A DNA stretch of 64,000 nt from contig NZ_JAANCM010000004.1 in the NCBI RefSeq assembly GCF_011603255.1, positions 248,001-312,000 of the forward strand. Reading direction: 5' to 3'. Position 1 is the first letter of the stretch. Each line of letters opens with the position of its first letter. This DNA is from Ferranicluibacter rubi. GTDB taxonomy: Bacteria > Pseudomonadota > Alphaproteobacteria > Rhizobiales > Rhizobiaceae. Below the pieces are notes generated by a model. That model worked only from the letters and a program-made list of their open reading frames with translations. It made no database searches and had not been told where the DNA came from. The translations under genes were made by a program, and so were the position numbers. Positions 21,359-38,700 of this stretch are shown piece after piece.

Positions 21359-22765
21359 CTACCGGATCAGCGCAGACTTGCCCCTCGGGAGATACGTGCC
21401 TGTCGGCGTATCGCTCTCGGCAGGTTTGCCGTCCTTGACGATCGTCCGGCCGCGCAGGAGCACGCGGGTGGGCCAGCCCTGGATGTCGAGGCCTTCGTAA
21501 GGCGTGTAGTCGGCGCCGTGGTGGAGAAGGTCGTTGGTGAGCGTGGTGCGCTTCTCGGGGTCCCAGAGGGCGAGGTCGGCATCCGAGCCGATGGCGATGG
21601 TGCCCTTGCGGGGATAGAGCCCGTAGAGCTTGGCATGGTTGGTGGCCGTGACCGCAACAAAGGTATTGAGGTCGATGCGGCCCCTCATCACGCCTTCGGA
21701 AAAGAGGATGGGAAGGCGGGTGGCAACGCCCGGAATACCGTTCGGGATCCAGCGGAAATGGCGCTTGCCCTTCTCGTTCAGCTTGCCCTCGGGGTCATCG
21801 AAGCGGAAGGGGCAATGATCGGAGGAGAACAGGTCGAACACGCCCTGTTCGAGGCCCTCCCAGCAGGCGTCCTGGCTCGCCTCGTCGCGCGGCGGCGGCG
21901 AGCAGACGTATTTTGCCCCCTCGAGCGCATCCTGATCGAGATCGTCCGCCGTCAGCATCAGATATTGCGGGCAGGTTTCGCCGGCGATCTTCTGGCCGCG
22001 CTGGCGGGCGCGCCGGATTTCCTCCATCGCCTCGCGGTTGGAAACGTGGACGATGACGATCGGCACATCGACGATTTCGGCAAGCGACAGAGCGCGGTGG
22101 GTCGCCTCACGTTCAGCCGCGACCGGCCGGGTCGTCGCGTGGAATTTCGGGGCGAACTTGCCCTCCTCCTCGTGACGGCCGATGAGGTAGCGGATGGCAT
22201 CCTCGTTCTCGCAATGAACCATGACGAGCGCACCGGTGCGCCGCGCCGTGTCGAGCGTGGCGAGGATCTCGTCGTCGCGCAGCCGCAGGCCCTCATAAGT
22301 CATGAAGACCTTCATCGAGGTATAGCCGTCCTCGACCAGCGCCGGCACTTCCTGGCCGAGCACCTCCGGCGTCGGGTCGGTAATGACCATGTGGAAGGAC
22401 ACATCCACATGGCATTTGTCCTCTGCCTTCGCATGATAGATCTTCAGGGCTTCGCGCAGTGATTGGCCCTTCTCCTGTATGCAGAAGGCCATGACGGTCG
22501 TGTTTCCGCCAATGGCGGCCGAGCGGGTGCCGCTGTCGAAATCGTCGGCCATGACGATGCCGTCGCCGGAGGGCTGGTCGAGATGCACATGGCTGTCGAT
22601 ACCGCCGGGAAGGACGAGAAGGCCGGTCGCATCGATGATCTCGTCGGCGTCCGTCAGCTCCGCCGCGAGTGCGACGATACGGCCGTCGCGGATGCCGATA
22701 TCGCTTTTGAACGTATCGGAGGCCGTCACCACCGTTCCATGGCGGATCACCGTGTCGAAGCGCAT
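21359..22765 (-). CDS. hydA: Dihydropyrimidinase / D-hydantoinase
   Basis: A 468-residue amidohydrolase that opens cyclic amides such as dihydropyrimidines or hydantoins. The binuclear metal site is complete: His59 and His61 (HVH), the carboxylated Lys152 (TSMKVF), His184 (VHCEN), His240 (VHVSN) and Asp316 (SDHCPF). The length fits. It is last in a five-gene operon with a class-V PLP enzyme and an amino-acid type ABC transporter. No N-carbamoylase, which would normally follow in hydantoin or pyrimidine breakdown, is in this cluster. The physiological substrate may therefore differ from hydantoin. Confidence 0.92.
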   Translation of the reverse strand: MRFDTVIRHGTVVTASDTFKSDIGIRDGRIVALAAELTDADEIIDATGLLVLPGGIDSHVHLDQPSGDGIVMADDFDSGTRSAAIGGNTTVMAFCIQEKGQSLREALKIYHAKAEDKCHVDVSFHMVITDPTPEVLGQEVPALVEDGYTSMKVFMTYEGLRLRDDEILATLDTARRTGALVMVHCENEDAIRYLIGRHEEEGKFAPKFHATTRPVAAEREATHRALSLAEIVDVPIVIVHVSNREAMEEIRRARQRGQKIAGETCPQYLMLTADDLDQDALEGAKYVCSPPPRDEASQDACWEGLEQGVFDLFSSDHCPFRFDDPEGKLNEKGKRHFRWIPNGIPGVATRLPILFSEGVMRGRIDLNTFVAVTATNHAKLYGLYPRKGTIAIGSDADLALWDPEKRTTLTNDLLHHGADYTPYEGLDIQGWPTRVLLRGRTIVKDGKPAESDTPTGTYLPRGKSALIR

Positions 22766-22798
22766 CGTTCTCTCCTTCTTGTATCCTGCATGGCCTGC

Positions 22799-24064
22799 TC
22801 AGCTCGCCTTGGCCAGCCCGGCATCACCCGCAAGGATGCGGTCGAGGGCAGCGGTAAAGCGATCGACCTCTTCCAGCGTGTTGTAGTGGACCATGGAAAC
22901 CCGCAGCATGCCGCCATGGTCGGTGAGGCCGAGATATTCGGCAAGGCGGCGCGAGTGGAAATCGCCGAACCGCATGGCGATCTTCTCGGCGTCCATCGCC
23001 TTGCAAAGCTCGCCAGCATCACGGCCATCGAAGCGGAAGGCGATGGTGGGCACACGCGTATCGTTGCGGTTGGTCGCCTGGCCAACAATGCGGCAGTCGT
23101 TGCGCGCCCGGAGATAGGTGAGGAGCCGCTCGGCCAAGGCATTCTCCTGCGTCGTGATCGCCGAGAAGGCGGCCTCGATCTTCCGGCGGGTCGTGCCGGT
23201 CTCGCCGGCCTGCTCGCCCAGCGTCGCGAGATAATCGACGATGCCGCAGGTGGCATAGGCAAGCTCGTAGTTCGGGTTGCCGGGCTCCAGCTTGCCCGGC
23301 ACTTTGTCCTTGCCGTAGAAGTAGTGGTAGAGCGTGTCGAGCTCCAGCAACAGGTCGTATTTGCCGTACATCAGCGCGTAGTGCGGCCCGTAGGTCTTGT
23401 AGAGGCTGAAGACGTAATAATCGGCATCGAAGGCCTGCACGTCCACGGCCCGGTGCGGCGCATAGGCAACGGCATCGACGCAGATCCGGGCGCCGCGCGC
23501 ATGCACGAAATCGGCGATCTCGCGGATCGGGTTAACCGAGCCGAGAATGTTGGAGACGTGGGTAACGCAGACGAGCTTCGTGCGCTCGGTCATCAGCGGC
23601 GCGAGATCGGCTGGATCGAGCGTCATGGTTTCCGTGTTCAGCGGCCAGATCTTGAGCGTGATTCCAGCGGCCTGCAGCCGGTCCCAGGGGCCGATATTGG
23701 ATTCGTGATCGCTGACGGTGATGACGATCTCGTCGCCCGGGGACAGCTGGCTCTGCATGGCACGGGCAAGATTCTGGAGAAGCGCCGTGGTCGAGCTGCC
23801 GAAGACGATTTCTTCCGGTCGGTTGGCGTTGACCAGATGCATGGCCGCCGTGCGTGCCTCGTAGAGCGCGCGGGCCGCCTCCTGCGACACGTCGTAGGAA
23901 CCGCCGATCTGGACGTTCTTGTCGATCAGGAACGTATTGATGCGGTCGAGCGCGCCTTTGAGGATCTGCGATCCCCCGGCATTGTCGAAGAAGGCCCAGC
24001 CTTTGGCGAGCCCTGGAAACTGGCTGCGCACATAATCGAGATCGAGCGGCGTCGTGGTGGCCAT
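22799..24064 (-). CDS. Class-V PLP enzyme, cysteine-desulfurase-like (VC1184/TIGR01976 type)
   Basis: A 421-residue fold-type I PLP enzyme. Lys223 in FSLYKTYGPH is the predicted Schiff-base lysine and SDHESNIGPW binds near the cofactor. It resembles the SufS/CsdA group, but the desulfurase catalytic cysteine is missing: where SufS has RTGHHCAMPL this protein has RFGDFHSRRL. It is therefore unlikely to be a sulfur donor and could be a lyase, transaminase or epimerase acting on an amino acid. The start at 24064 follows GGAGGA. It lies between the ABC ATPase and hydantoinase genes, with gaps of 29 and 33 nt, so the substrate is probably shared with them. Confidence 0.85.
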   Translation of the reverse strand: MATTTPLDLDYVRSQFPGLAKGWAFFDNAGGSQILKGALDRINTFLIDKNVQIGGSYDVSQEAARALYEARTAAMHLVNANRPEEIVFGSSTTALLQNLARAMQSQLSPGDEIVITVSDHESNIGPWDRLQAAGITLKIWPLNTETMTLDPADLAPLMTERTKLVCVTHVSNILGSVNPIREIADFVHARGARICVDAVAYAPHRAVDVQAFDADYYVFSLYKTYGPHYALMYGKYDLLLELDTLYHYFYGKDKVPGKLEPGNPNYELAYATCGIVDYLATLGEQAGETGTTRRKIEAAFSAITTQENALAERLLTYLRARNDCRIVGQATNRNDTRVPTIAFRFDGRDAGELCKAMDAEKIAMRFGDFHSRRLAEYLGLTDHGGMLRVSMVHYNTLEEVDRFTAALDRILAGDAGLAKAS

Positions 24065-24093
24065 CCGTGTTGTCCTCCGTATTGTTTTCTTGT

Positions 24094-24855
24094 TCAGTGG
24101 TTGAGGACAGCGCGCAGGAAGCTGCGCGTGCGCTCTTGCCTCGGGCTGTCGAAGATCTGCTCCGGCGTGCCGGCTTCCACCAGCCGTCCGCTGTCCATGA
24201 AGATGACGCGGTCGGCGACCTGGCGGGCAAAGCCCATCTCGTGCGTGACGATGATCATGGTCACGCCGGTGCCGGCGAGCTTGCGCATCACGTCCAGAAC
24301 CTCTCCCACCATTTCCGGGTCGAGCGAAGATGTCGGTTCGTCGAAGAGCAGCACGCGCGGCTCCATGGCCAGCGCCCGGGCAATGGCCACGCGCTGCTGC
24401 TGTCCGCCGGAAAGCTGGGCCGGAAACTTCTCCGCCTGTTCGCCGATGCCGACGCGGGCGAGCAGGTCGCGGGCCTTGCGCTCGGCATCGGCCTTCACCG
24501 TGCCGCGCACCCGCATGGGCGCGAGCATGACGTTCTTCAGCACGGTCATGTGCGGGAAGAGATTGAACGACTGGAACACCATGCCGACCTCGGCCCGCAC
24601 CTTGGCAAGCGCCTTGCCGGGTGCAACGCGGATACCATCGACCGTGATCGTGCTGTCCGCCGAGAAGGGCTCCAGATGATTGATGCAACGGATCAGCGTC
24701 GATTTGCCGGAGCCGGACGGGCCAATGACGCAGACGACCTCGCCCTCGGCGATATCGAGATCAATGCCGTGGAGGACCGTGAAGGTGCCATAGGCCTTGG
24801 TGAGGCCGCGGATGGAGATGATCGCGGGAACGGGCGTGGTGATGGTCGTGCTCAT
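24094..24855 (-). CDS. Polar amino-acid ABC transporter ATPase (GlnQ type)
   Basis: A 253-residue ATP-binding subunit of a polar amino-acid importer. Walker A is GPSGSGKS (45-52), the signature is LSGGQQQR, and Walker B is VLLFDEPTS. The sequence is typical of GlnQ/HisP proteins. The start overlaps the stop of the permease gene (ATGA), so the two are translationally coupled. The open frame extends far upstream through the permease, but the start at 24855 gives the normal length. Confidence 0.95.
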
Positions 24856-25526
24856 CAGCGTTTCCCCCGTGCGAAATGTTTCTCGAGGCGGGCGACGACG
24901 GCGACCATCGGCCAGAGCAGCAGGACGTAGATGATGGCGGCACCGATCAGCGGCGTCGGGTTGGCCGAGAGCGCCTGCGCCTGCGTCGCCTGTTTCAGAA
25001 GGTCCGGCATGGCGACGACGGAGGCGAGCGACGTGTCCTTCATGACGTTGATGCAATTGTTGGTGAGCGGCGGAATGACGATGCGGACAGCCTGCGGCAG
25101 GATGACATCGATCATCGTGTGCCTGTTGGAGAGGCCAAGCGCCGCCGACGCCTCGAACTGGCCATGCGGAATGGCCTCGATGCCGGCGCGGAAGATCTCG
25201 GCCGTATAGGCAGCCGACACCAGCGAGAGGGCCGTGACCGCAGAGAGGAAGGGCGACAGGCGGATGCCGACGAAAGGAAGCGCATAATAGACGACGATCA
25301 GCAGAACGAGCAGCGGAATCGAGCGGAAGATATCGATATAGATGCGGATCAGCAGCTTGAAGAAAGCCGGAGCGTAGAGCCGCGCGATGGCCAGGAACAG
25401 GCCGCCTGCAAGACCGCAGAGAATACTGGTGACGCCGATCTGCAGCGTGACCACAAGACCCCACATGAGCTGCGGCAGACTGTCGGCCAGCACCTGCATG
25501 TTGAAGAAGGTATTGATGAGATTCAT
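24855..25526 (-). CDS. Amino-acid ABC transporter permease (HisM/GlnP type)
   Basis: A 223-residue inner-membrane permease with about five helices. The EAA loop [24 protein letters not shown] couples to the ATPase. Only one permease gene is present, so the transporter is probably a homodimer of this subunit. It lies 63 nt after the binding-protein gene, from which it is separated by a hairpin, and overlaps the ATPase gene by 1 nt. Confidence 0.94.
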
Positions 25527-25548
25527 GGCCGAAACGGCTCCCTGGCAT

Positions 25549-25577
25549 CCGGCAGGACCTTTGTGCGATCCTGCCGG
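25549..25577 (-). terminator. Intercistronic hairpin after the binding-protein gene
   Basis: CCGGCAGGA and TCCTGCCGG form nine perfect pairs around an 11-nt loop. It lies in the gap between the binding-protein and permease genes. There is no T-run, so it more likely stabilises the upstream mRNA or attenuates than fully terminates. Confidence 0.55.
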
Positions 25578-25589
25578 TGCGGTTGCGGC

Positions 25590-26387
25590 TTACTTGGCCT
25601 TGGGCATGTCCATGACGGCGACGGTCGAGGTCGTATCCTCGGCCTTGGCACCGAACCAGGTCTCGTGAAGCTTGGCGATGAAGCCTTCGCCCTTGAGCTT
25701 GGTGATCACGTCGTTGACCTCGGCAGCCAGCGGGTCGCCCTTGTTGAACATGATCGAGTATTTTTCGCCGGTCGGGATGCGCTCGACGACCTTCAGCTCC
25801 GGCTTGTCCTTGACGTAGTAGAGCAGCGCCGGAATGTCGGAGATGTAGCCATCGACGCGGCCGGCGACGAGGTCGAGCATGGCGGGCTGCAGGCCTTCGA
25901 AGCGACGGATCTCGCCCAGCTTGTACTCGACCTTGTGCGCGTCCGCCCACATGTCGCCGGTCGAGCCGGTATCGACGCCGACGACCTTCTCGCCCATGTC
26001 CTTGAGGCCGGTGATGCCGGAGGCGGCGGTCACGGTCAGCGACTGGTCGCTGTCGTAATAGGGCTGGGCGAAGCTGACGGAGGCCAGGCGCTTCTCGGTG
26101 ATGGTGATCGAGGAGACCGCCATGTTGATGCGGCCGGACTGGACGGCCGGGAAGAGGCCGTTGAACGGCGTGTTGACGAATTCGACCGTCTTGCCGAGGC
26201 GCTTGGCGATTTCGTTGACGAGATCGACTTCGAAACCTGTCACCTTGCCGCTTGCATCTTCGAATTCCCACGGCACGTTGCCGATATTGGCACCGACCGT
26301 GAGATCGGCGGCGAGAGCGCTGGCCGTGCCAAAGATAGCGAGGACGCCGGCAAGAAGCGTTGTTTTGAGAGTGTTCGTTCGTGTCAT
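25590..26387 (-). CDS. Periplasmic amino-acid-binding protein of ABC importer
   Basis: A 265-residue family-3 solute-binding protein. It has a signal peptide: basic start, hydrophobic core [14 protein letters not shown] and a likely AXA cut near ALAA. The mature fold shows [43 protein letters not shown], the classic polar amino-acid-binding signature. I chose the ATG at 26387 because it follows AAGGGGA and begins the signal peptide; the longer frame adds 26 unrelated residues. It is first in the operon, directly downstream of the 29-nt palindrome. The ligand is not predictable by eye. Confidence 0.95.
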
Positions 26388-26427: not shown

Positions 26428-26456
26428 TGGCCTGACTGGTCAGACCAGTCAGGCCA
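26428..26456. promoter_or_regulatory. 29-nt perfect palindrome, probable FadR/GntR operator
   Basis: Two 14-nt arms, TGGCCTGACTGGTC and GACCAGTCAGGCCA, are perfect reverse complements around a single A. The core TGGTC-A-GACCA matches the TGGTxxxACCA pattern of FadR-subfamily operators. It lies 41 nt upstream of the binding-protein start and 164 nt upstream of the FadR-type regulator, so it can control both. Confidence 0.85.
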
Positions 26457-26620
26457 AAAAAGCACGATGCTTTCCGCTTGGCAATGGCCGCGAACAAAAT
26501 AGATTGGGCGCCTGTCTCTCGGATTTTGGACCCGGATACGGCAGGAATTGATATGTCGGCGGCAAGAGCTGGGGCGCCAGCGCCTATCGCCAAGTGCTTG
26601 AGGTGCGGAGTGGGGTTTTC

Positions 26621-27319
26621 ATGTTGAACAAGACGCTCGTCCCGCAATCGGTCGCCCGCGAGATCCAGGCGATGATCCAGAACGGCACGTTGAAAGCGGG
26701 CGAGAAAATCCCGTCTCAGCGCGGATTTTCGCAGACGCTCGGCGTCAGCCGCGCATCTCTGCGCGAGGCGCTTCTGACACTGGAAACGCTGGGTCTTCTG
26801 AAGACGGAAGCAGGGCGCGGCACCTTCGTGACTGTGTCGACAGAGGGTGCGGGGCGCGCCTCCGGCCATATGGCCCCCTGGCGCTATTCCGACAGCTATT
26901 CGGTGTTCGACGTCTTCCAGACGCGGATTCTGCTGGAGGGCGAGATCGCGCGACTGTCGGCCGGTCGCCTGACGCAGTTGCAGCTCGACCGGATGGAGAT
27001 GGCGACGCAGACCATGGAGGAATGCTGGGCGCGGCAGGATCTCCTGTCCAATGTGGAAGCGGACCTCGACTTTCACGGCACGATCGTCTCGGCCTGTTCG
27101 AACGCCATGCTGAAGGCGCTCTATCAGACGGTGCGCGATCAGGTAACGGAAACGCAACGCCAGCCGATCCCGATCACCGACCCGGAACGCATGCGCCATT
27201 CAATCGCCGAACATCGCCGGATCATCGCAGCACTCCGGAACAACGATGCCGCAGCGGCGCGCCAGGAAATGGAAGCGCATATCCGCAACACCGCGCGCTG
27301 CGCCGGGCTTTCGCCGTAA
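26621..27319 (+). CDS. GntR-family regulator, FadR subfamily
   Basis: A 232-residue regulator. The winged helix (residues about 8-70) includes PSQRGFSQTLGVSRASLREALLTLETLGLLKTEAGRGTFV. The C-terminal FCD ligand domain has the metal-type ligands Asp and His in LDFHGTIV, His in IAEHRRII and His in MEAHIRNTA. GGAG lies shortly before the ATG. It is divergent from the hydantoinase/ABC operon, with the 29-nt palindrome between, so it is very probably that operon's repressor. The effector is likely a small carboxylate or amino acid taken up by the transporter. Confidence 0.93.
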   Translation: MLNKTLVPQSVAREIQAMIQNGTLKAGEKIPSQRGFSQTLGVSRASLREALLTLETLGLLKTEAGRGTFVTVSTEGAGRASGHMAPWRYSDSYSVFDVFQTRILLEGEIARLSAGRLTQLQLDRMEMATQTMEECWARQDLLSNVEADLDFHGTIVSACSNAMLKALYQTVRDQVTETQRQPIPITDPERMRHSIAEHRRIIAALRNNDAAAARQEMEAHIRNTARCAGLSP

Positions 27320-35745: not shown

Positions 35746-38700
35746 TCGACCGCCTGAACCTCCATGCGGCCCGTTGCCGTGCGCGCGGAGAATTGCGGGC
35801 GGTACATGTCCTCGACCGTTGCCGCGGGATGATCGTAGGTGCCGGAGGTGACGGCACGCACGACATAGGCAACCGTCATCTCGTTCGTATCGCCGGCGGC
35901 ATGGTCGAAGGCGGCGACGAAGCGGTCGCTGCGGAACTCGCTATGGGCTGCCTGCATCTCGCCCAGCCATTCGAAATTCGACAGCTTGGCACTGTCCACC
36001 AGCGTCGGATTGTCGATCTCGAACCCGGCGGGCAGAAGGTCCGTGACAAGAATACGGGCCGGGCCGGGGTTGAGATCGGTCGCCTTGATCACCACGACAT
36101 AGCGTTCGTTCTGGCGGGCTTGGCTGACATTCGCGGGTTCGCCGTCGAGCGTGTAGTAGCTCCGCTCGATGGCATAGCCGTTGCCGCCGGCCGGCAGCGG
36201 GAAGGCGGGAGCGGCAACAGTCGTCACCGTCGCCGTTACCGGCTCCTTGCCGGCATTGGCGATGGTGACGGGACGGGCAAGGATCTCGTCGCCGGTCTTG
36301 CGGGCGGCAAAGGCGCCCGATGACGCCACGCCGTCCACCGTCAGGGCGAGGCCCTCGTCTCCGCCCGACACCGCACGGGCGGCGAGCAGCATCCACAATT
36401 GCTCCTGGGTGCTGGTGGTCGATGTGCGGTCCCATGCGGCCGCGACCTTCCTTGCGAGCGCAGGAATGATCGTCGGGACAGGGCGGCTTTCGGCCGCAAG
36501 AGTCAGCACCGCCGCATCGTCGCGAAGGGCGGAGCCGTAGTCCGACCGGGCAAGCTCCGAGATCTTCGCATCCTCGGACATCGTCGCTGCCTGCGAGAAC
36601 ACGCTCTCCGCCCGGTTCGCATCGCCATAAAGCGACAGGGCTGCGGCCAAGTGACCCTTGGAAAGGGCCGTCGGGAATTCGCCGAGCTTCGTATCGACGT
36701 AGTAGCGCAGGTCGCTGATGGCGGCCTTGCGGTTGCGGGCGAGAACATAGAGCGCGTAGGCGATGCCGTTGCCCTGCTCGGTCACGTTGACGTCGTAGGA
36801 GAGCGAGTTCTGTAGATTGTCGAGCGCCTGCACCATGGCCTGCTCCGGCACGTCGAAGTTCTTTTCGCGGGCGCGGGTCAGGAACTCGGTCACGTAGCTG
36901 TCGAGCCAGAGATCGCCGGAACCGGGACCCCAAAGGCCGAAGCTGCCCGACGACGACTGGTAGGAGAGGACGCGGTGGATGGCATCCTGAACACGCGTGC
37001 GCACATCGGCATCTTCGGGAAGACCGGATTGGGCAGAGAGTTCGCTCAGATAGAGAAGCGGCAAAGCGCGGCTCGTCGTCTGCTCCGCGCAGCCATAGGG
37101 GTAGCGGTCGAGCACCATCAGAAGCGCCGGGATATCGAAGGCGGCAGCCCTGCTGACGCTAAGACTGACGGACGCGCCGCGCAGCTGACTTTCCGCAAGC
37201 AGGCCCTCGTCCACGACAAGGCTCGCGCCGGGTTTCAACTCGACCGGCAGGCGCGTGGTGACCGGAAGCGAGGCGGGCCGGACAGGGATCGACAGCGTCT
37301 GGTCGAGCGACAGTCCATCGGCCCCGGCGATCTTGACGGTGAACGTTCCATCGCCCGGATGCACGCCTTTCAGCGGCAGGGTCACATCGATCTTCGAGCC
37401 GGCCGGAATGGCAAAGCTCTGGGCGAGCGACGCTGTATCGACGGAGAGCGAGGGATCGGCCTCGACCGTGATTGTGAGATCGCCGGCCGGGGCATCGGTA
37501 TTGGCGATATCGAGGCGCAGTTCGGCGCTGTCGCCGGGCGCCAGGAACTTCGGCAGGCTGGCGGTGACGACGACAGGATCTCGGATGACCACGTCGGCGC
37601 TCGCATGGCCGACGCCCGCTTTCGTCCAGGCCACGGCCATGACGCGCGCGGTGCCGTTGAATTGCGGAATGTCGAAACCGATAATGGCCTTGCCCTCGGC
37701 ATCGAGCTTGACCGGGCCGGAGAAGAAGGCGACCAGCTTTTCCGTGGGCGGATTGCCCTGCAGCGCCATGGCACCGCCATCGCCGCCGGTGCGCAGACGT
37801 CCGGTCGCGCCCAGCGAGCCATCGATCAGGCGGCCGTAGAGATCGCGGATCTCGAGGCCGAGGCGGCGCTGGCCGAAATACCAGCCATCGGGATCCGGCG
37901 CCTGGTAGCGCGTGAGGTTGAGAATGCCGACATCGACGGCGGCAAGCGTCACATAGGCTTCCTCGCCGACACCGGAGCCGGCAACGCTGACGGGGATGTT
38001 CAGCGTCTGCCGCGGCAGCGTCTTCTCCGGCAGCGTCAACGACACGTCGAGCTTGCGCTCGGCTGGATCGACAGACAGCCATTTGACGCCGATGGCGCGC
38101 ATCGGCATACGGCTTTCCTGCGCGTCACCCGGCCGATAGAGCGTCGCCGTGACATAGGCGCCGGCACCGAACTCGGCCGTGATCGGCAAAGCGATCTTGT
38201 CGCCGGTCGCGGGAATGGAAACGGTTTTGGTGGCGATCAGGGTTTCCGAACCGACGGTGACCAGCAGTTCGCCGGCAAATCGCGGCGAGACGTTGAGGGT
38301 CGCGGTTTCCCCGACCTTGTAGCTGTTCTTGTCGAGAGCGATCTCCAGGCCGTCGGGCGTCTCGGTGGAGGTCGCCGCGACGTAGAAGCCGGCATCGAAC
38401 TCGACGCTCGAAACGGGATCGCCGCCGGGACCCGCAACCTCCAGCCGGAAACGGCCCCAGGTGACGGGAACGCTGACCGTGCCACCATCAGTCCCGGCAT
38501 CGACCGTGCCGTTCGACAGAAGCTTGGTCGACAGGATGGGCTCGTAGCGCCACGCCGTACCTTCGCGATACCACTGGTACTGCCGCTCAACGCTCATGAG
38601 CTTCCACGTCAGGCCCGGCATCGCCTTGCGCGCGCTATCCGGCCCGACACCGATCACGTGGAACGTGCCGGTGGAATTCTCGGTGAGAGCACCACTGAAG

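Follow-up and report, generated by a model that had tools for sequence, protein, structure and literature searches.

In a 64,000-nucleotide stretch of the Ferranicluibacter rubi genome (contig NZ_JAANCM010000004.1, positions 248,001 to 312,000; here called the window), five genes on the minus strand form an operon that joins an amino-acid importer to a class-V pyridoxal 5'-phosphate (PLP) enzyme and a hydantoinase, with a regulator gene diverging from it. Profile searches placed all five genes where the initial annotation had put them, transcribed in the order binding protein, permease, ATPase, PLP enzyme, hydantoinase. The features are as follows (window positions).

26594-27319, plus strand: GntR/FCD regulator, divergent from the operon (Pfam GntR and FCD)
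26428-26456, between regulator and operon: perfect palindrome of 14 + 14 bp around one base, a probable operator (from the sequence)
25590-26387, minus strand: SBP_bac_3 binding protein of a polar amino-acid ATP-binding cassette (ABC) transporter (Pfam, 3.3e-36)
24855-25526, minus strand: amino-acid ABC transporter permease (TIGR01726, above cut-off)
24094-24855, minus strand: amino-acid ABC transporter ATPase (ABC_tran, 6.5e-36)
22799-24064, minus strand: Aminotran_5 class-V PLP enzyme (TIGR01976)
21359-22765, minus strand: hydantoinase/dihydropyrimidinase of the PRK13404 subfamily (TIGR02033 and NF009941, above cut-off)

With an SBP_bac_3 protein, an HEQRo permease, and an ABC ATPase, the importer is a complete set of the PAAT type; the start of the ATPase gene overlaps the stop of the permease gene, and the best NCBIfam match of the ATPase is of the GlnQ/EhuA type, under the equivalog cut-offs. 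In an alignment of the window's binding protein with those from 108 of 135 loci that passed the limits of E 1e-40 and 200 amino acids, S93, T95, R100, and D184, which we take to be the positions that bind an alpha-amino acid, were identical in all 109 rows. Uptake of a compound resembling an alpha-amino acid, as proposed in the initial annotation, is supported. Of 79 homologous intergenic regions, 62 contained the core of the palindrome, TGGTC-n(1-3)-GACCA. Within the genome, the exact 11-bp core occurred at only two positions, the other one inside an open reading frame (ORF) of 627 amino acids, and exact core matches across the genome yielded no second operator target.

Conservation and distribution of the operon

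A scan with one genome per species returned 159 stretches encoding a relative of the PLP enzyme, the best 80 of which were kept; 8 plasmid stretches picked from the match list and 47 stretches chosen to include distant relatives were added. Locus counts rest on tblastn mapping, as the scripted gene calls were crude in high-GC DNA and included some shadow ORFs. The genes for the binding protein, permease, ATPase, and PLP enzyme occurred together, importer before PLP gene, in all 80 best loci, and a GntR homologue diverged from them in 79, the remaining locus being cut off. Directly behind the PLP gene, a hydantoinase gene was found in 67 of the 80 (two of the other 13 loci end too soon), as well as in 5 of the 8 plasmid stretches and 20 of the 47 stretches chosen to include distant relatives. 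This grouping is far beyond chance. The PLP gene itself (E up to 1e-85) is patchily distributed, being present in 26 of 199 genomes of the window's family, 24 of 337 genomes of its class (nearly all distant homologues, 36 to 49% identity), and 7 of 398 genomes of its phylum. A quick tree built from 136 PLP proteins placed all 93 hydantoinase-linked rows in a single clade of 115 rows (SH-aLRT, 100), which takes in Burkholderiales and, on a long branch, a row from a Deinococcus plasmid; none of the 21 rows outside the clade was linked to a hydantoinase.

The PLP enzyme scored 368.7 bits against TIGR01976 (cysteine desulfurase-like; cut-off, 352.35), the protein being 14 residues short at its N terminus. 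Its best match in the PDB was Fgm3 (298.9 bits, residues 6 to 411), followed among solved relatives by UstD (206.4 bits) and by cysteine desulfurases at no more than 171 bits. Both Fgm3 and UstD act at the C-beta/C-gamma bond. According to the available excerpt of PMC10367076, Fgm3 acts on gamma-hydroxy-L-arginine in a retro-aldol reaction, and UstD catalyzes a decarboxylative aldol reaction. The PLP lysine of the window's enzyme is K223; Lys223 and Tyr225 align with the Lys of Fgm3 and the Tyr two residues on, an active-site motif, Y-K-x-Y-G-P-H, is common to the two enzymes, and on our reading of the alignment Tyr225 would correspond to the putative retro-aldol base of the Fgm3 paper. We consider it probable that the PLP enzyme is a C-beta/C-gamma lyase.

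In two further stretches (L138, 3118-7265; L139, 6037-10193), a PLP relative from within the clade stands in a row with a short-chain dehydrogenase/reductase and a class-I aminotransferase, both named by eye, and a hydratase closest to HpaH (in L138, 99 bits against the HpaH model, with a cut-off of 351.5). These neighbors look like those expected for a pathway in which gamma-hydroxy amino acids are made and cleaved.

The hydantoinase scored 547.7 bits against TIGR02033 (cut-off, 393.25) and 765.4 bits against NF009941 (cut-off, 647). H59, H61, K152, H184, H240, and D316, presumably the metal ligands (HxH, carbamylated Lys, two His, and Asp), were identical in all 77 aligned rows, in agreement with the complete ligand set claimed in the initial annotation; of the residues that we take to bind substrate, Tyr157 and Asn342 were invariant and Ser289 was found in 76 rows. 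The predicted opening of a ring by this enzyme is supported. In the loop by which known hydantoinases presumably contact the exocyclic group, the window's enzyme reads EGLRLRD, versus KGLMVDD in the genome's other hydantoinase. The arginines of this loop are not universal (R161 in 68 and R163 in 66 of the 77 rows, many of them near-copies). Identity of the window's hydantoinase was 41.2% to HYDb, 40.5% to the genome's other hydantoinase, and 46.4% to the Deinococcus enzyme, and all three hydantoinases from Burkholderiales and Deinococcus that were tested beside the same PLP clade fell below the PRK13404 cut-off. Because clearly different hydantoinase lineages follow the same PLP clade, the pairing of PLP enzyme and ring opener looks functional rather than merely inherited. 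Allantoinase was rejected as the identity of the ring opener (TIGR03178, 286.7 bits; cut-off, 357.85), and a plain pyrimidine operon was rejected on scores and residues.

A candidate route for oxidized histidine without a carbamoylase

No carbamoylase is encoded in the operon, as the initial annotation had already remarked. Elsewhere in the genome, 7 M20 and 6 CN-hydrolase matches were found (two of these 13, L006 at a limit of 1e-60 and L093 at a limit of 1e-40, without any model), and only one of them, C4:114468-115442, belongs to the TIGR01879 hydantoinase/carbamoylase family; it sits with another hydantoinase, the adjoining second TIGR02033 gene at C4:112461-113807. A distant carbamoylase under the same operator, which together with normal hydantoin catabolism would have told against the initial annotation, was looked for by comparing positions and not found: a genome search for the operator core with at most one mismatch gave 43 matches (the one-mismatch sites being compared by position only), and each of the 13 genes was more than 5 kb away from all of them.

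A concrete reason for the missing carbamoylase is offered by the Burkholderiales, in which the operon extends to an AllA gene. The order binding protein, permease, ATPase, PLP enzyme, hydantoinase, RpiR, AllA was found in L136, L137, L164, L167, and L169 and on a Polaromonas plasmid (L108), and the contig of L165 ends after RpiR; AllA is thus present in 5 of 6 sampled Burkholderiales operons plus one plasmid. In the Burkholderiales family sampled, AllA was matched in 49 of 250 genomes and in all 6 that have the operon (one-sided Fisher test, 4.4e-5), a test in which sister species are not independent and in which the 6 include G957, whose AllA match is on another contig; counted by genus, the figures were 4 of 4 with the operon versus 35 of 137 (p, 0.005). 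Three PLP-positive genomes (G906, G1018, and G1100) had neither a hydantoinase behind the PLP gene nor an AllA match, the contig of G906 ending just upstream of the PLP gene. The F. rubi genome has one PF04115 AllA gene (C38:22612-23082), which adjoins a PuuE allantoinase gene, the two apparently belonging to a uric-acid cluster. On balance we favor ureidoglycolate, or a close analogue, as the product of the hydantoinase.

Ureidoglycolate as the ring product would lead back to 5-hydroxyhydantoin, the one among the simple hydantoins that opens to it, and 5-hydroxyhydantoin combined with an alanine-releasing retro-aldolase would lead back to an alanine bearing a 4,5-dihydroxy-2-oxoimidazolidine at C-gamma. 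By this retrosynthetic logic, oxidized histidine in a gamma-hydroxy form is our tentative candidate for the substrate. We presume that such a product arises from histidine by singlet oxygen and that its ring atoms are assigned accordingly. The opened, hydrated form of 6a-hydroxy-2-oxo-octahydropyrrolo[2,3-d]imidazole-5-carboxylic acid would be a 4,5-dihydroxy-2-oxoimidazolidin-4-yl alanine. The bicyclic acid itself is named as a histidine oxidation product in the available excerpt of PMC10376966.

From the enzyme families we infer the reactions, their order, and the compound as follows. The importer would take up the bicyclic carboxylate, with the GntR/FCD protein sensing substrate or product; the PLP enzyme would cleave the C-beta/C-gamma bond by a retro-aldol reaction, giving L-alanine and 5-hydroxyhydantoin; the hydantoinase would open the latter to ureidoglycolate; and AllA, encoded in the operon in Burkholderiales and elsewhere in this genome, would split ureidoglycolate into glyoxylate and urea. 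By our own derivation, the balance would be C6H9N3O4 + H2O -> alanine + C3H4N2O3, and, with a second H2O, C3H4N2O3 -> ureidoglycolate -> glyoxylate + urea, requiring neither a redox step nor a carbamoylase. The operon may accordingly break down, without redox chemistry, an alpha-amino acid that carries a gamma-hydroxy, ring-oxidized imidazole; the foremost candidate is histidine oxidized by singlet oxygen, a reading that we put forward with less than even confidence. We speculate, more doubtfully still, that light-exposed bacteria have in this succession of PLP retro-aldolase, hydantoinase, and AllA a dedicated means to salvage the carbon and nitrogen of histidine that singlet oxygen has destroyed.

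This scheme retains the uptake, the ring opening, and the independence from a carbamoylase that the initial annotation had envisaged and departs from it in the order of the two enzymes. There, the hydantoinase was to free an amino acid for the PLP enzyme; since the C-beta/C-gamma bond is the one formed or broken by Fgm3 and UstD, its nearest characterized kin, we expect instead that alanine would be cut off first and the ring left for the hydantoinase. The original order is therefore not the best fit, though it survives in the hydantoinyl-alanine route discussed below.

Several observations weigh against the proposed route. Being bicyclic and having a secondary amine, the main histidine photoproduct could bind PLP only after it has opened. 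Position 225 of the PLP enzyme carries Tyr in 71 of the 93 hydantoinase-linked rows and Phe in the other 22, so that Tyr225 is no discriminator and was discarded as a marker of retro-aldol activity. In 11 of the 80 best loci, importer and PLP gene are present and there is room behind them, yet no hydantoinase gene follows directly; three of these loci (L038, L041, and L054) have a hydantoinase-family gene at another position, and a consistent substitute for the hydantoinase was looked for in the hydantoinase-less loci and none was seen. Of the 115 rows in the PLP clade, 22 have no hydantoinase link, and the tree requires the linkage label to change 14 times. The arginine-bearing loop of the hydantoinase is hydrophobic in both Burkholderiales enzymes read. 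As for AllA, of the three Burkholderiales copies scored, two pass the subfamily model PRK13395, the plasmid's copy fails it, and none passes any equivalog cut-off. The alphaproteobacterial operons are without AllA, the link being direct only in Burkholderiales, and in the Rhizobiaceae the comparison is uninformative: AllA is nearly universal there (185 of 198 genomes; 26 of 26 PLP-positive genomes versus 159 of 172; p, 0.15), and we dropped the idea that it tracks the operon in that family.

Alternative substrates, related systems, and neighboring genes

Another gamma-hydroxy amino acid that has to be considered is gamma-hydroxy-L-arginine (4-hydroxyarginine), on which the first step would be exactly the Fgm3 reaction, giving alanine and guanidinoacetaldehyde; the cyclized aldehyde would be oxidized to glycocyamidine (2-iminohydantoin), the hydantoinase would open this to guanidinoacetate, and a ureohydrolase encoded elsewhere would yield glycine and urea. 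This route would call for a dehydrogenase and a ureohydrolase, neither of which is in the window's operon, and would leave the AllA of the Burkholderiales operons unexplained, and we consider it unlikely, even with five arginase-family genes in the genome. Its other support comes from two stretches, L105 (7992-10251, Rhizobium leguminosarum) and L109 (8106-10251, Phyllobacterium), which encode PLP relatives (51 to 52%) from within the PLP clade, with no hydantoinase behind and an agmatinase gene (TIGR01230, above cut-off) 10 to 37 bp before the PLP gene; a polysaccharide deacetylase gene with a weak likeness to PuuE (65 to 73 bits versus 424.6) lies 2 to 5 kb behind it. These two loci possibly reflect the use of gamma-hydroxyarginine by bacteria from Fabeae hosts, the chemistry of those hosts being the ground for the idea. 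Fgm2 is the enzyme that opens a ring in the fusaoctaxin cluster to which Fgm3 belongs. It is described as polysaccharide-deacetylase-like in the available excerpt of PMC6389888. Both stretches, however, sit on a long branch (1.15) with their importer genes reversed, a possible sign that the substrate has changed, and in L105 an IS3 transposase gene separates the PLP and deacetylase genes.

An improbable route to the same end products, with the same genes and equally free of redox steps, would start from imported 3-(hydantoin-5-yl)alanine, i.e., fully oxidized histidine: the hydantoinase would act first, giving 4-ureidoglutamate, and a PLP-dependent retro-Mannich cleavage at C-beta/C-gamma would release alanine and ureidoglycolate for AllA. 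The charged loop EGLRLRD, with R161 and R163, is what a zwitterionic side chain would call for if the role that we assume for this loop is right, and the binding protein retains its alpha-amino-acid residues; the hydrophobic loop of the two Burkholderiales enzymes counts against this route too, a gamma-ureido leaving position is unproven in this PLP family, and we know of no natural abundance of the compound. Somewhat less probable again is ordinary use of hydantoins or dihydropyrimidines, with a distant carbamoylase acting in trans and the PLP enzyme serving as a transaminase or racemase. The hydantoinase does pass the D-hydantoinase/dihydropyrimidinase models, and one TIGR01879 gene exists, but that carbamoylase has a hydantoinase of its own, and no operator-core match lies on C4; moreover, for the five plasmid stretches that carry the hydantoinase operon (L102, L104, and L106 to L108), the gene table, which is incomplete, lists no carbamoylase, and neither AllA nor the kinship of the PLP enzyme to C-C lyases would be accounted for. 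Sulfur chemistry, with a class-V desulfurase and a hydantoinase opening a thiohydantoin as in ergothioneine use, would suit the database name "cysteine desulfurase-like" and is nevertheless very improbable. The position of the desulfurase Cys is taken by His370, and that column holds no Cys in any of the 136 rows; on this and on a SufS score of 215.2 bits versus 475.1, a cysteine desulfurase was rejected. The hydantoin-5-propionate amidohydrolase ErtD was likewise rejected (237.4 versus 650 and 180.3 versus 600 bits in its two models).

The proposed oxidized-histidine route resembles several known systems in part. Fgm3, of the fusaoctaxin pathway of Fusarium, is biosynthetic and fungal, unlike this operon, and differs in the segment KLELAAASYE (KLEPGNPNYE in the window's PLP enzyme). 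With reductive pyrimidine breakdown (Pyd) and D-hydantoinase operons the window shares the hydantoinase family, kin to solved hydantoinases; here, the carbamoylase is absent and a PLP enzyme related to C-C lyases and an amino-acid importer are added, and the genome has its separate hydantoinase-plus-carbamoylase cluster besides. Allantoin and ureide catabolism (AllB/PuuE and AllA) shares the opening of a hydantoin-type ring and, in Burkholderiales, an AllA-family gene, but the ring opener here is not an allantoinase, and an importer and a PLP enzyme for an amino acid are added. Ergothioneine use (Ert genes) likewise includes an amidohydrolase that opens a hydantoin ring derived from histidine; it has its own carbamoylase, ErtE (by model name), and the ErtD models score far below cut-off here.

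In line with the initial annotation, which knew of no pathway with exactly this set of genes, none was found in a full-text literature search covering few subscription journals; the available excerpt of the Polaromonas plasmid paper (PMC6015842) annotates the three gene products separately. We read the operon as a combination, not found described, of known families that would amount to a carbamoylase-free hydantoinase pathway. PLP/hydantoinase pairs of this kind are usually named cysteine desulfurase-like protein and dihydropyrimidinase, and we found no role for them in print. If the proposed route is correct, neither annotation fits the biology: the pair would dismantle an oxidized amino acid, with urea released through a lyase, which would mean a new reaction for class-V PLP enzymes and a new hydantoinase substrate. 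Hydantoinases without a carbamoylase would then not need to be remnants of incomplete pathways, and photo-oxidized histidine would gain a biological sink.

Some further features deserve mention in their own right. At window positions 36264-36343 (minus strand), ARAGORN called a tRNA-Lys that is absent at the Rfam gathering threshold and probably false. In L054 (10265-16350, Phyllobacterium), which has no hydantoinase gene behind the PLP gene, a converging operon encodes a hydantoinase with its own amino-acid importer, along with proteins that by eye resemble HpcH-type aldolases and dihydrodipicolinate synthase (DHDPS). L038 and L041 have a hydantoinase of a second subtype (58 to 61% to the window's; loop, TYDDLVLND) behind the GntR gene, not the PLP gene. 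In L124, two arginase-family genes (29 to 33% to the agmatinase of L105) and another amino-acid importer adjoin the operon, 4 to 9 kb from the PLP start. Finally, a module found near the operon in several genera (L062, 11818-18657; L017, 12928-16795; L081, 12282-16108; L079, 3-2923) consists of an amidohydrolase and a protein resembling Asp/Glu/hydantoin racemases, joined in some cases by a DHDPS-like protein (both likenesses by eye); in L062, the racemase-like copy has no model match at 1e-40, and the amidohydrolase is closest to ErtD, below the cut-off.

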